In this document: positions 31,572 to 35,567 of the stretch, piece by piece
Position numbering within the stretch: position 1 is the stretch's first letter
Layout: each line of letters begins with the position of its first letter
Assembly: GCA_903862845.1 (NCBI GenBank)
Contig: CAIOZS010000098.1
Span: 1 to 55,227 of the forward strand
Source: an uncultured Thermoleophilia bacterium
Lineage (GTDB): Bacteria; Actinomycetota; Thermoleophilia; UBA2241
DNA length: 55,227 nt
Direction: 5' to 3'
Translations under genes and position numbers: made by a program
Notes under the pieces: model-generated
Databases searched by the model: none
What the model was told of the DNA's origin: nothing
What the model saw: the letters and a program-made list of their open reading frames with translations, nothing else

Positions 31572-32147
31572 ATGCCGAGCCTCAAGGGCACCCAGACCGA
31601 GAAGAACCTGCTCAAGGCGTTCGCCGGCGAGAGCCAGGCGCGCAACCGCTACACCTTCTTCGCCAAGCAGGCGGCGAAGGAGGGCTACGAGCAGATCGCC
31701 GCCCTCTTCCTCGAGACCGCCGAGAACGAGGGCCAGCACGCCAAGATCTACTTCAGGCACCTCGAGGGCGGCATCGTCGAGATCACCGCCTCCTACCCGG
31801 CCGGCAAGATCGGCACCACCGCCGAGAACCTTCTGGCGGCCGCCGAGGGCGAAAACGAGGAGTGGACGGATCTGTACCCCGCCTTCGGCGACATGGCCGA
31901 ATCCGAAGGCTTCAAGGAGGTTGCGAGCTCGTTCCGCCAGATCGCCAAGGTCGAGGCCTGGCACGAGAAGCGCTACCGCACGCTGCGCGAGAACGTCGAG
32001 AAAGGGCTCGTGTTCGAGAAGCCCGAGCCGGTCAAGTGGGTGTGCCGCAAGTGCGGCTTCGTGCACGAGGGCACCAAGGCGCTCAGGGTCTGCCCGGCCT
32101 GCCAGCACCCGCAGGCCTATCAAGAGGTCTACGCCGAGAGCTTCTGA
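31572..32147 (+). CDS. Rubrerythrin
   Basis: The 191-residue protein has an N-terminal ferritin-like di-iron domain (Glu and His ligands in [17 protein letters not shown] and [19 protein letters not shown] in the last helix) and a C-terminal rubredoxin domain with CRKC and CPAC. It reduces peroxide in anaerobes and microaerophiles. ATG 31572 has AAGGAG at 7 nt; the GTG at 31545 is less likely. Confidence 0.97.
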
Positions 32148-32209: not shown

Positions 32210-32803
32210 TCAGACCTCCGGCGTGCCGCCGGCGCCCGCGGCGACCTTGCCGCGGAGCGACAGCAGGACCCCGGCCATCACCACGATGATGGTCGCGTCG
32301 ATGAACGTGAACACCGTGTTGATGTCGACGCCCTCGTCGAAGACCCCGGCGGGAAGCTGCCACGGGTTCGTGGCCCCATTGGCGATGTGGTAGTTGAGGT
32401 TCATCGCCAGAGCGGCGGCGGCGGCCAGGACGATGAGGCCGACGAGCACACGTCGCGCCGCCGGCGACAGCGACTCCCAGCGCACGAGCCATACGATGGC
32501 GGTTGCGATCAGCGTGACGCCCACGAAGAGCTCGCCGATGACGATGAGATAGCCGAACAGGCTCGCGTTGGGGATGATCACGCTGTCGGCGAGTGAGCGA
32601 TACCAGCCCGGCGCCGCCTGCACCCGGTCGTGCAGGTCCGCGGCGAGGCCGGAGACGAAGCCGCCGCGCACGATCTTCACCAGCACCGTCCAGAAGAACT
32701 CGAAGCCCACGATGATCTGCACCACGAGAAGGCCGGCGACGGCGCGGCTCTTCCACGCGGCCGTTTCCGCCGGCAGACCCGCGGCTTGCGCCTGTGTGGC
32801 CAT
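32210..32803 (-). CDS. DoxX-like membrane protein
   Basis: The 197-residue protein has about four membrane segments and the DoxX/DoxD-type N-terminus (VVQIIVGFEFFWTVLVKIVRG). ATG 32803 has GAGGGG upstream. It lies downstream of, and in line with, the sulfur-transfer operon 32930-35567, with a gap of 126 nt. DoxX/DoxD proteins are linked to thiosulfate:quinone oxidoreductase or thiol redox chemistry, which would suit this neighbourhood, but the assignment is by fold only. Confidence 0.7.
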   Translation of the reverse strand: MATQAQAAGLPAETAAWKSRAVAGLLVVQIIVGFEFFWTVLVKIVRGGFVSGLAADLHDRVQAAPGWYRSLADSVIIPNASLFGYLIVIGELFVGVTLIATAIVWLVRWESLSPAARRVLVGLIVLAAAAALAMNLNYHIANGATNPWQLPAGVFDEGVDINTVFTFIDATIIVVMAGVLLSLRGKVAAGAGGTPEV

Positions 32804-32929
32804 AGTGCCCCTCCCTCGGTAGACCGTTCCCCGTGTCCGTTCGCCAGGCGACGGCGCATGCCTGTGTCCGCACCTTGTGCGGCGAGCCCCGGAGGTCATC
32901 CCAGGGCTCGCCTCGTCGTCCGCCGCGCG

Positions 32930-33733
32930 CTACTCCAGCACCACGAGCGCGTCGGCCGTGAGCTCGTACTCCTCGTCCTCGTTGAGGTCGTGCACGCGGA
33001 TGCGCTCGAGCTCGCCCTCGCCCTTGAGCTCCAGCGGCTGCGCTTCGGTGAGCAGCTTCACATCGCTGAGGCGGAGGGCCGAGCGCACGGCGCTGCTGAC
33101 GCTCGGCTCCTTGCCGGTGGTCATGAGCACCACCCGGCTGGTGTGGTCGGTGAGGTCAATGGCCAGTTGCGCGGCCCGGTCGCCGGTGTCGAGGACCACC
33201 ACGCGCTGATCGGCCAGCGCGGACAGGTCGTCGACGCGCGTGTACGCGCCGCTTCCCTTGTAGTCGTCGAGGTTGGCGATCTCGACGACGGCCACTTCAG
33301 CGGGCCGCGGGTGGCACGACTTCTCCACCGGCGTCGTGGTCGCGTCCTCCGGCCTGACGCCGGCGCGCCAGTTCTTGATGGCCTCATGCAGGGCGTCGGC
33401 GGCCAGGTTGCTGCAGTGCATCTTGATCGGCGGCAGGCCGTCCAAGGCGTCGGCCACGTCGCCGCGGCTAACCTTCAGGGCCTCGTCGAGCTGCATGCCG
33501 ACGACGAGCTCGGTGATCATGCTCGAGGTGGCCACGGCCGAGCCGCAGCCGAAGGTCTGGAACTTGATGTCCTTGATGCGGTCGTCCTCAACGTCGATGT
33601 AGATGTCCATCATGTCGCCGCACACGGGGTTGCCGACGCGGCCGACGGCAACGTTGGGACCCTCGAGCGTGCCGACGTTGCGCGGGTTACGAAAGTGCTC
33701 GAGCGTCTTTTCGCTGTACTGGGTGGATTTCAT
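32930..33733 (-). CDS. IscU Fe-S scaffold fused to thioredoxin-reductase-like domain
   Basis: Residues 1-125 are IscU/NifU-N: the three cluster cysteines are in PVCGDMMD, FGCGSAVATSSM and KMHCSNLAAD, with the conserved Asp after the first. Residues about 155-267 resemble the NAD-binding half of thioredoxin reductase (a VVVLDTGDRAAQLAIDL strand and a DALVVLE end) but lack a redox CxxC and a full dinucleotide GxGxxG motif. The 267-residue length is about twice a normal IscU. It follows the IscS-like gene by 25 nt. The fusion suggests that cluster assembly is tied to an electron or FAD/NAD-dependent step. Confidence 0.88.
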   Translation of the reverse strand: MKSTQYSEKTLEHFRNPRNVGTLEGPNVAVGRVGNPVCGDMMDIYIDVEDDRIKDIKFQTFGCGSAVATSSMITELVVGMQLDEALKVSRGDVADALDGLPPIKMHCSNLAADALHEAIKNWRAGVRPEDATTTPVEKSCHPRPAEVAVVEIANLDDYKGSGAYTRVDDLSALADQRVVVLDTGDRAAQLAIDLTDHTSRVVLMTTGKEPSVSSAVRSALRLSDVKLLTEAQPLELKGEGELERIRVHDLNEDEEYELTADALVVLE

Positions 33734-33758: not shown

Positions 33759-34946
33759 TCACGCGTGGGCCTTTGCCTTGTAGAGCGGCGAGAGCACCCG
33801 CAAGCGGGTGATCACGCCGGGCAGCACGGCCATGATGCGGTCCACGTCGTCGTCCTTGCTGAAGCGCCCGAAGGTGAACTCGAGCGAGCCGTGCGCCTCC
33901 TCGTGCAGGAGCCCGCAGGAAATGAGCGTGTGCGACGGCTCCAGGGTCTTGGAGCTGCAGGCCGAGCCTGTCGCCGCGGCCACGCCTTGGTCGCGCAGCG
34001 ACAGGATCATGGCCTCGCCTTCCACGCCGTCGAAGCGGAAGTGCGCGTTGCTCGGCAGGCGCCCATCAGAAGGCTCCAGTGGGGCGCCGTTCAGGTGCGA
34101 GTCCGGGATCTCGGCGAGCACGCGCGCGACGAGGCGGTCGCGGATGCCGGCGATGCGCGCCACCTCCGCCGGCATCTCTGCCGTCATGATCTCGGCGGCG
34201 GCGGCCATGCCGGCGATGGACGCGAGGTCCTCGGTACCCGAGCGCAGGCCGTGCTCCTGGCCGCCGCCGAGCAGCACGGGCGCCACCTGCACGCCCTTGC
34301 GCACGTACAGCGCGCCCAGACCTCGCGGCCCGTAGATGTCGTTGGCCGAGAGGCTCATGAGGCTCACCGGCACGAGGCTCATGTCGATCGGCACGAGCCC
34401 TTCGGCGGCCACGGCGTCGGTGTGGAGCGCGACGCCGGTGCCGCCCAGCATCTCGGCGATCTCGGCGATGGGCTGCACGGTGCCGATCTCGTTGCTCGCC
34501 CAGCCGACGCTGACCAAGATGGTCTCGTCGGTGATGCGGGCGCGCAGCTTCTTGGCTGACACGCGCCCGTGGAGGTCGATCGGCGCGCGCGTCACCCGGA
34601 AGCCGTTCTTCTCCAGATACTTGGCGATGTTGAGCACCGAGATGTGCTCGGCCTCCGTGATGATCACGTGGTCGCCCTTGCGCCGGTTGCGCATGGCGTA
34701 CCCGATGATCGCGAGATTGTTGGCCTCGGTGGCGCCCGACGTGAAGATGATCTCCTGAGGCTGCGCGCCGAAGAAGCCGGCGACGACGGCGCGCGCGCGT
34801 TCGAGCGCCGCCGTCGCCTCGTCGCCCACGGCGTGCAGCGAGGCCGCGTTGCCGAAGGTGCCGGCGAAGTACGGCAGCATGGCCTCGACAACGCGCGGGT
34901 CGACGGGCTTGGACGACTGGTAGTCGGCGTAGACGACGTCGGGCAT
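33759..34946 (-). CDS. IscS/NifS-like protein lacking the PLP lysine
   Basis: The 395-residue protein has the cysteine desulfurase fold: SGATEANN, His101, Asp177, RSGTED and the persulfide-bearing loop with Cys330 (TGSACSSKTLEPSH). The PLP-binding segment, SxHK in desulfurases, reads LSANDIYGPRG, so Asp203 (codon 34338-34340) replaces the Schiff-base lysine and Asn202 replaces His. The same change is known in Archaeoglobus fulgidus IscS, reported to lack desulfurase activity and supply a cysteine for cluster assembly. ATG 34946 overlaps the stop of the DsrE-like gene (TGATG). Confidence 0.93.
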   Translation of the reverse strand: MPDVVYADYQSSKPVDPRVVEAMLPYFAGTFGNAASLHAVGDEATAALERARAVVAGFFGAQPQEIIFTSGATEANNLAIIGYAMRNRRKGDHVIITEAEHISVLNIAKYLEKNGFRVTRAPIDLHGRVSAKKLRARITDETILVSVGWASNEIGTVQPIAEIAEMLGGTGVALHTDAVAAEGLVPIDMSLVPVSLMSLSANDIYGPRGLGALYVRKGVQVAPVLLGGGQEHGLRSGTEDLASIAGMAAAAEIMTAEMPAEVARIAGIRDRLVARVLAEIPDSHLNGAPLEPSDGRLPSNAHFRFDGVEGEAMILSLRDQGVAAATGSACSSKTLEPSHTLISCGLLHEEAHGSLEFTFGRFSKDDDVDRIMAVLPGVITRLRVLSPLYKAKAHA

Positions 34947-35308
34947 CAGAACCACATGGTGGCGCCGGCATCCAGCGCAAGGTCGTTCAGTGTGGCGGCG
35001 CCGACGATCTTGACGCCGTCGATCAGCTCAACGCTCTCCCAGCCGAGCATCTGCTTGGAGGCCTCGCACACGTACACCGTGATGCCCATGTCGATGGTCT
35101 TCTTGAGCAGCTCGGCAACGGTCGGGAAGCTCCCGAGCTGCATCTCCTCGGCCACGCCGGGCTTAAGGACCGTGAGGCCCATGCCCAGGTAGTACACGGC
35201 GGCGTCGATGCCCATGGCCTTGGCGCTCTGCGCCAGAACGAGCGGCGAGTACTGCTTTTCGGGGAGATTGCTGGTCTGCACGTACAGGATCGAATTCTCG
35301 TTCTTCAT
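34946..35308 (-). CDS. DsrE/DsrF-like sulfur-relay protein
   Basis: The 120-residue protein has a DsrE/F-like alpha-beta fold: VQTSNLPEKQYSPLVLAQSAKAMG, then YYLGMGLTVL and VYVCEASKQMLGW, where the cysteine occupies the sulfur-accepting position of this family. ATG 35308 has AAGGAG upstream. It stands between TusA and the IscS-like gene, consistent with persulfide hand-over. Confidence 0.88.
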   Translation of the reverse strand: MKNENSILYVQTSNLPEKQYSPLVLAQSAKAMGIDAAVYYLGMGLTVLKPGVAEEMQLGSFPTVAELLKKTIDMGITVYVCEASKQMLGWESVELIDGVKIVGAATLNDLALDAGATMWF

Positions 35309-35324: not shown

Positions 35325-35567
35325 TCATTTGAGGCGGCGGATGAGGATGTGAAGCTGGCCGCCGTCGTTCTCCACGGCGACGACCTCGTGCCCGGCGCGC
35401 TTGGCGAAGCGCGTGAGGTCTTCCTCGGCGGCCGGGTCGTCGGCGTAGACTTCGAGCACCTCACCGATCGCGATGGAGTCGATGCTCTCTCTGGTCTGGA
35501 ACAGCGGCTCGGGACAGTAGAGGCCCACGCAATCTAGCGTCTGCGCGGGGGTAGCGTCGTCGGTCAT
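35325..35567 (-). CDS. tusA: TusA/SirA sulfur carrier protein
   Basis: The 80-residue protein has the TusA signature DCVGLYCPEPLFQTR, with the CPxP sulfur-carrying cysteine. ATG 35567 follows AAGGAG by 7 nt. It is the first gene of the operon running to 32930 or beyond, and an imperfect palindrome sits just upstream. Confidence 0.93.
   Translation of the reverse strand: MTDDATPAQTLDCVGLYCPEPLFQTRESIDSIAIGEVLEVYADDPAAEEDLTRFAKRAGHEVVAVENDGGQLHILIRRLK

Follow-up and report, generated by a model that had tools for sequence, protein, structure and literature searches.

A lysine-less IscS encoded with TusA, DsrE and a fused IscU in a Thermoleophilia bacterium, and a possible route to Fe-S clusters fed by persulfide carriers

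The window, meaning the whole stretch of DNA that was analysed, comprises 55,227 nucleotides of contig CAIOZS010000098.1 from an uncultured Thermoleophilia bacterium (assembly GCA_903862845.1), and carries on its minus strand an operon for TusA, a DsrE-family protein, an IscS-like protein and an IscU scaffold with an additional C-terminal domain (Table 1). TusA and DsrE are persulfide carriers. At its 3' end dsrE runs into the start region of the gene for the IscS-like protein, in which an alternative GTG start at 34955 would add three codons. The TusA has an additional conserved cysteine, Cys13, five residues ahead of the CPEP cysteine. A downstream membrane ORF at 32213–32899 was rejected as an operon member, having no homolog near any related locus and no family match.

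Table 1. Coordinates of the operon and of the adjoining rubrerythrin gene in the window
Feature	Position	Strand	Details
TusA, 80 aa, CPEP active-site Cys18	35325..35567	minus	PF01206 5.8e-24
DsrE-family protein, 120 aa, conserved Cys81	34946..35308	minus	PF02635 1.8e-13, PF13686 1.3e-14
IscS-like protein without the PLP lysine	33759..34946	minus	395 aa, ATG at 34946, stop ends 33759
Codon 203, GAC, Asp at the Schiff-base lysine position	34338..34340 (read 34340..34338)	minus	
IscU/NifU_N scaffold with C-terminal TrxR/FNR-type remnant	32930..33733	minus	PF01592 8.4e-45, TIGR01292 9.5e-9
Rubrerythrin beside the operon, not counted as a member	31572..32147	plus	NF045767 1.8e-85

Translation of the minus-strand frame confirmed what a preliminary description of this DNA had read there, namely SAND in place of SxHK, with Asp203 for the lysine and Asn202 (codon AAC) for the histidine, and with His101, Asp177 and Cys330 kept. 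The protein has the fold and sequence homology of IscS/NifS and, with Asp203, lacks the PLP-binding lysine that marks group I cysteine desulfurases. Its best NCBIfam model was NifS (3e-130, 434 bits, below the model cut-off of 530.75 bits), its Pfam assignment was Aminotran_5, and Foldseek searches with an AlphaFold2 model gave a TM of about 0.9 to IscS chains, with 4eb5, 4hvk and 4r5f as best structural matches. The closest solved protein was Archaeoglobus fulgidus IscS2 (434 bits, 53% identity), with human NFS1 at 315 bits and E. coli IscS at about 309–315 bits.

Alignment of the lysine-less sequences showed that a second PLP contact is also lost, Ala180 replacing the Gln of the usual HTDAVQ in 79 of 81 sequences, and that the active-site cysteine of the loop motif TGSAC330SSKT is present in all 81. 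Thr73, His101, Asp177 and Ser200, positions that normally hold PLP in IscS enzymes, are invariant, as is S386-P387 near the C-terminus. Taken together, sequence and homology suggest a catalytically disabled IscS, without the one residue needed for desulfuration.

A sequencing error in codon 203, which the preliminary description had named among the things that would undo its reading, and a pseudogene were both rejected: the ORF is intact, a single error cannot account for Asp203 since GAC to AAA or AAG takes two substitutions, and orthologs from independent assemblies agree. These orthologs, from the same genus, family and class (L006–L013), were retrieved by protein similarity and not by motif, and all read S(A/S)ND. 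The wider set of 80 loci was gathered with two peptide patterns, one of them containing ND, so that its count of Asp in 81 of 81 sequences is biased if taken alone; the similarity-based searches are independent of the ND motif and free of this bias. Among the loci selected by similarity, every examined protein scoring at or better than about 1e-117 was of the ND type; the seven distinct proteins scoring between 1e-112 and 1e-114 were without exception of the HK type. Since these motif-free searches split ND from HK by score, the ND trait serves as a clean clade marker.

A maximum-likelihood tree of 89 proteins placed all ND-type sequences on one side of a single branch (support 100/99), with A. 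fulgidus IscS2 at the base of the clade, and the clade was retained after the active-site columns were removed (SH-aLRT 98). The window protein thus groups with the A. fulgidus IscS2 type by monophyly as well as by Asp at the lysine and Asn at the histidine position, and the kinship to Archaeoglobus IscS put forward earlier is borne out by identity and phylogeny alike. Two other losses of the lysine were seen. Four Asgard genomes (G072, G063, G071, G084) encode a second lysine-less paralog (L177–L180) with DAHR or DAHH for SxHK, His101 changed to Thr or Ser, and the loop cysteine kept; in a deltaproteobacterial genome (G054), an IscS-like protein (L171) reads ASNP, with Lys changed to Pro, and represents a separate loss on the tree.

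The protein is more than a single bacterial instance of an archaeal peculiarity. The sequences place it in one clade whose members occur in many bacterial phyla and in roughly half of the Asgard genomes sampled. Carriers were found in Thermoleophilia, Coriobacteriia, Syntrophaceae and other deltaproteobacterial lineages, WOR-3/Stahlbacteria, Aminicenantes, Eisenbacteria, Fibrobacterota, Bacillota and Asgard archaea, and a scan of viral contigs gave no matches. An even draw across the window's own phylum found a lysine-less IscS in 2 of 397 genomes. The corresponding draw across the Asgard phylum gave matches at 1e-110 in 100 of 196 genomes, at least two of which (G494, G510) matched solely through an HK protein, and that for the WOR-3 phylum gave 21 of 147, two of them HK. 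Within the window's genus, one relative (G004) has a lysine-bearing IscS only; another (G003) likewise shows only a lysine-bearing IscS at the search threshold, yet the frame that holds its IscU is as long as that of a fused one.

The gene neighbourhood is conserved along with the protein. TusA lies directly upstream of the lysine-less IscS in 72 of the 73 loci with readable upstream sequence and in none of 20 control loci, which surround the other IscS genes that these genomes carry; two of the controls (L225, L226) belong to the second lysine-less Asgard type and the rest are lysine-bearing. In those two an IscU adjoins and no TusA was found. The similarity-selected loci gave the same picture, with TusA in nearly all ND loci and in none of the seven HK loci. 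DsrE is present in 60 of 80 lysine-less loci, and an IscU, usually of 250–280 aa, follows in 72 of 75. The cysteines of the operon are conserved (IscS Cys330, DsrE Cys81, TusA Cys18), as are all IscU cluster ligands. A deeper Asgard branch (L283–L285, L291–L293, L295) has a short IscU with TusA and DsrE still there, and in one Asgard branch (L282, L286, L287, L289) TusA was not found within about 1.5 kb.

The length of the IscU is explained by a fusion, a feature absent from the preliminary description. Residues 1–125 form a complete IscU, with the three cysteines, aspartate and histidine of the scaffold (C38, D40, C63, H106, C107) and LPPIK, and residues of about 151–266 are homologous to the NADP-binding domain of thioredoxin reductase/FNR, with profile matches to TrxR/FNR chains of 1.6e-13 (2zbw). 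The AlphaFold2 model of the fused protein (pLDDT 88.6) matched 4eb5_C and 3lzw in Foldseek, the fused domain superposing on 3lzw with an rmsd of 1.7 over 117 columns. The match is limited to the central NADP-domain region and does not extend to an FAD domain: CxxC occurs in the fused domain of 0 of 55 sequences, most of the nucleotide-binding motifs typical of such reductases (GGGxxA, HRRxxxR) are gone, and the nucleotide loop keeps a single invariant glycine. Ordinary NADPH-disulfide chemistry is therefore unlikely on sequence grounds, since CxxC is missing and the nucleotide loop reduced, and we infer a docking role for the domain.

As the preliminary description had proposed, the host genome was searched for other Fe-S systems. 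The 94% complete assembly encodes a lysine-bearing IscS within an Rrf2-IscS-IscU-MnmA operon (L002), as well as an additional IscS paralog with SAHK (L003), and no SufB/SufD was found in it by a search in which all 14 control genomes scored. The L003 gene (G000:C343:12269-13408) lies among genes that, judged by eye, resemble those for an ABC-type ATPase, a HypB/CooC-like GTPase and an Fe-S protein, and this neighbourhood is possibly a dedicated metallocentre maturation set. The lysine-bearing IscS-IscU operon rules out the lysine-less operon as the sole Fe-S system of this host, where it is therefore accessory. Most bacterial carriers also have a lysine-bearing IscS, and SufB/D was found in 14 of 45 carriers. 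The genomes are draft assemblies in which absences are soft, and with that reservation SufS-like group II proteins were found in several Thorarchaeota assemblies but a lysine-bearing IscS of group I was not, and in a 95% complete relative (G013) the sole NifU_N match was the fused IscU, the sole close IscS was the lysine-less one, and SufB/D was represented by a weak match.

These observations are best accommodated by a relay, which we regard as having about an even chance of being correct, in which the non-desulfurating IscS is fed with persulfide by TusA, or TusA and DsrE, and hands either sulfur or a cysteine ligand on to its dedicated IscU. The disabled IscS would have been retained as a platform for docking and for relaying sulfur. 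TusA would acquire its sulfur at another site in the cell, from a lysine-bearing IscS or from inorganic sulfur, and deliver it as a protein persulfide, together with DsrE where present; the sulfur would move on to Cys330 in the mobile loop, which would present it to the dedicated IscU and transiently ligate the nascent cluster there. The reductase-derived domain of that IscU probably recruits a redox partner for the reduction of persulfide to sulfide. In the window bacterium, this would amount to a second, accessory route of Fe-S assembly or repair beside the normal IscS-IscU. We infer the direction of sulfur flow, the identity of the TusA loader, the role of the fused domain and any role in oxidative stress. 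For the relay count the membership in the A. fulgidus IscS2 clade, the linkage to TusA and IscU, the kept cysteines and IscU ligands, the invariant S386-P387, the precedents of A. fulgidus and M. acetivorans (PMC7585200), and the lysine-bearing IscS of the host, which could load TusA; against it count the reversed direction of TusA in E. coli (PMC11302665), the supply of IscU by free sulfide in anaerobic E. coli without IscS (PMC13015791), the absence of DsrE from a sizeable minority of loci, the Asgard branch without a nearby TusA, and the redox role of the fused domain, which is a guess.

The closest competing explanation is the one applied to A. fulgidus, in which the lysine-less IscS does no more than lend a cysteine as a transient ligand of the nascent [2Fe-2S] cluster on IscU, the sulfide itself arriving by diffusion in a sulfide-rich cell. 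It draws on the A. fulgidus IscS, which according to PMC7585200 has no activity and is seen as a cluster ligand in the crystal structure, a precedent that the preliminary description gave correctly as to the lost activity and the cysteine ligand, and whose structure 4eb5 is the best match here, as well as on anaerobic E. coli without IscS, in which free sulfide can feed IscU (PMC13015791). It leaves the near-obligate upstream TusA, and the frequent DsrE with its kept cysteine, unexplained. Since Cys330, the IscU ligands and the TusA and DsrE cysteines are kept and the linkage to TusA is fixed, a persulfide relay fits better than free sulfide alone, which we regard as the less likely but still credible alternative. 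From the earlier interpretation the loss of the PLP lysine, the kinship to A. fulgidus IscS and the TusA/DsrE/IscU operon stand, the operon favouring a persulfide-fed route, and the entry of sulfur, from TusA/DsrE or as free sulfide, is its conjectural part; overall, that interpretation is partly supported.

The remaining explanations appear improbable, to a similar degree. A changed PLP/PMP enzyme, holding its cofactor non-covalently and catalysing another reaction, would agree with the invariance of the PLP-holding residues, and Lys13, which the window protein has and the main branch conserves (of 80 sequences in which position 13 is occupied, 77 have Lys and 3 Arg), might take over from the lost lysine; but the PLP-contacting Gln is gone too, and Lys13 is an unlikely substitute for the Schiff-base lysine, occurring as it does in the inactive A. 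fulgidus IscS2 and missing from the deeper ND branch, where position 13 is V, N or S. A stress or repair module, handling sulfane sulfur or repairing clusters after oxidants, or else a regulator that modulates canonical IscS by hetero-oligomerisation, is suggested by the rubrerythrin gene adjoining the window operon and by genes for rubrerythrin, desulfoferrodoxin, flavodiiron protein, peroxiredoxin or ferritin-like proteins within about 6 kb of 16 of 52 lysine-less loci, as against 0 of 20 control IscS loci, a count in which the loci are not phylogenetically independent. WOR-3 and allied lineages account for most of the 16, and the dedicated IscU and TusA speak for assembly over regulation alone. 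An oxidative-stress island as the general context was rejected, being real in WOR-3 and some other lineages but absent from the Coriobacteriia and Asgard loci. Seven WOR-3/Stahlbacteria loci (L067, L073, L075, L078, L081, L097, L105) have the operon within an island of genes for ferritin-like proteins, a flavodiiron protein, ferredoxin-thioredoxin reductase, glutaredoxin and a copper ATPase, mostly with desulfoferrodoxin and peroxiredoxin as well.

The protein type is already known from archaea. The linkage to TusA, the IscU fusion and the breadth across bacteria and Asgard archaea were not found in the open-access literature, which gave no bacterial description of a TusA-IscS-IscU operon, and an earlier account in subscription papers is possible. 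Tentatively, and with more doubt than we attach to the relay itself, the operon may represent a distinct Fe-S assembly system, TusA-(DsrE)-lysine-less IscS-IscU with a reductase-like domain, that takes its sulfur from a persulfide carrier and not from cysteine and is shared between anaerobic bacteria from numerous phyla and roughly half of the Asgard archaea sampled. The lysine-less A. fulgidus IscS had looked like an isolated archaeal curiosity; it now belongs to a conserved clade with a fixed sulfur-carrier partner. Cluster building without cysteine desulfuration can thereby be put to the test in more than one organism, among them bacteria with a normal IscS besides and Asgard archaea, for some of which the assemblies show no lysine-bearing group I IscS.

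Among known systems, MIS and SMS resemble the window operon as small gene sets in anaerobes. The accessible part of PMC12192291 describes SMS as working without a desulfurase and able to use sulfide, and MIS as including a cysteine desulfurase, and describes neither with TusA or a lysine-less IscS. SMS is SufBC-based. Of the cysteine desulfurase and scaffold by which MIS is defined, the window operon has the scaffold, together with a desulfurase homolog that is without the lysine. The IscS-IscU core of E. coli and of human NFS1 is alike in fold, IscU partner, mobile-loop cysteine and an SPL near the C-terminus, but has the PLP lysine, desulfurates cysteine and works with an unfused IscU. In E. 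coli, TusA accepts sulfur from IscS, and TusA and IscU compete for that enzyme (PMC11302665); the reverse direction is proposed for the window operon; anaerobic E. coli without IscS can supply IscU from free sulfide alone (PMC13015791). Methanosarcina acetivorans IscS1 is without the lysine and its IscU1 is oversized at 24.2 kDa, and four further genes, whose function is unknown, lie in a cluster with these two (MA0808/MA0807); this is a likeness at the level of the published description (PMC7585200). The nearest counterpart is A. fulgidus IscS2 (4eb5, 4eb7, 4hvk; D199K mutant 4r5f), for which PMC7585200 attributes the lack of desulfurase activity to the change of Lys to Asp and describes a Cys ligand given to the IscU cluster. 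It shares with the window protein the changes of Lys to Asp, His to Asn and Gln to Ala, the loop cysteine, Lys13 and an IscU partner, which in A. fulgidus has 153 residues (4eb5) and no fused domain, whereas that of the window is fused.
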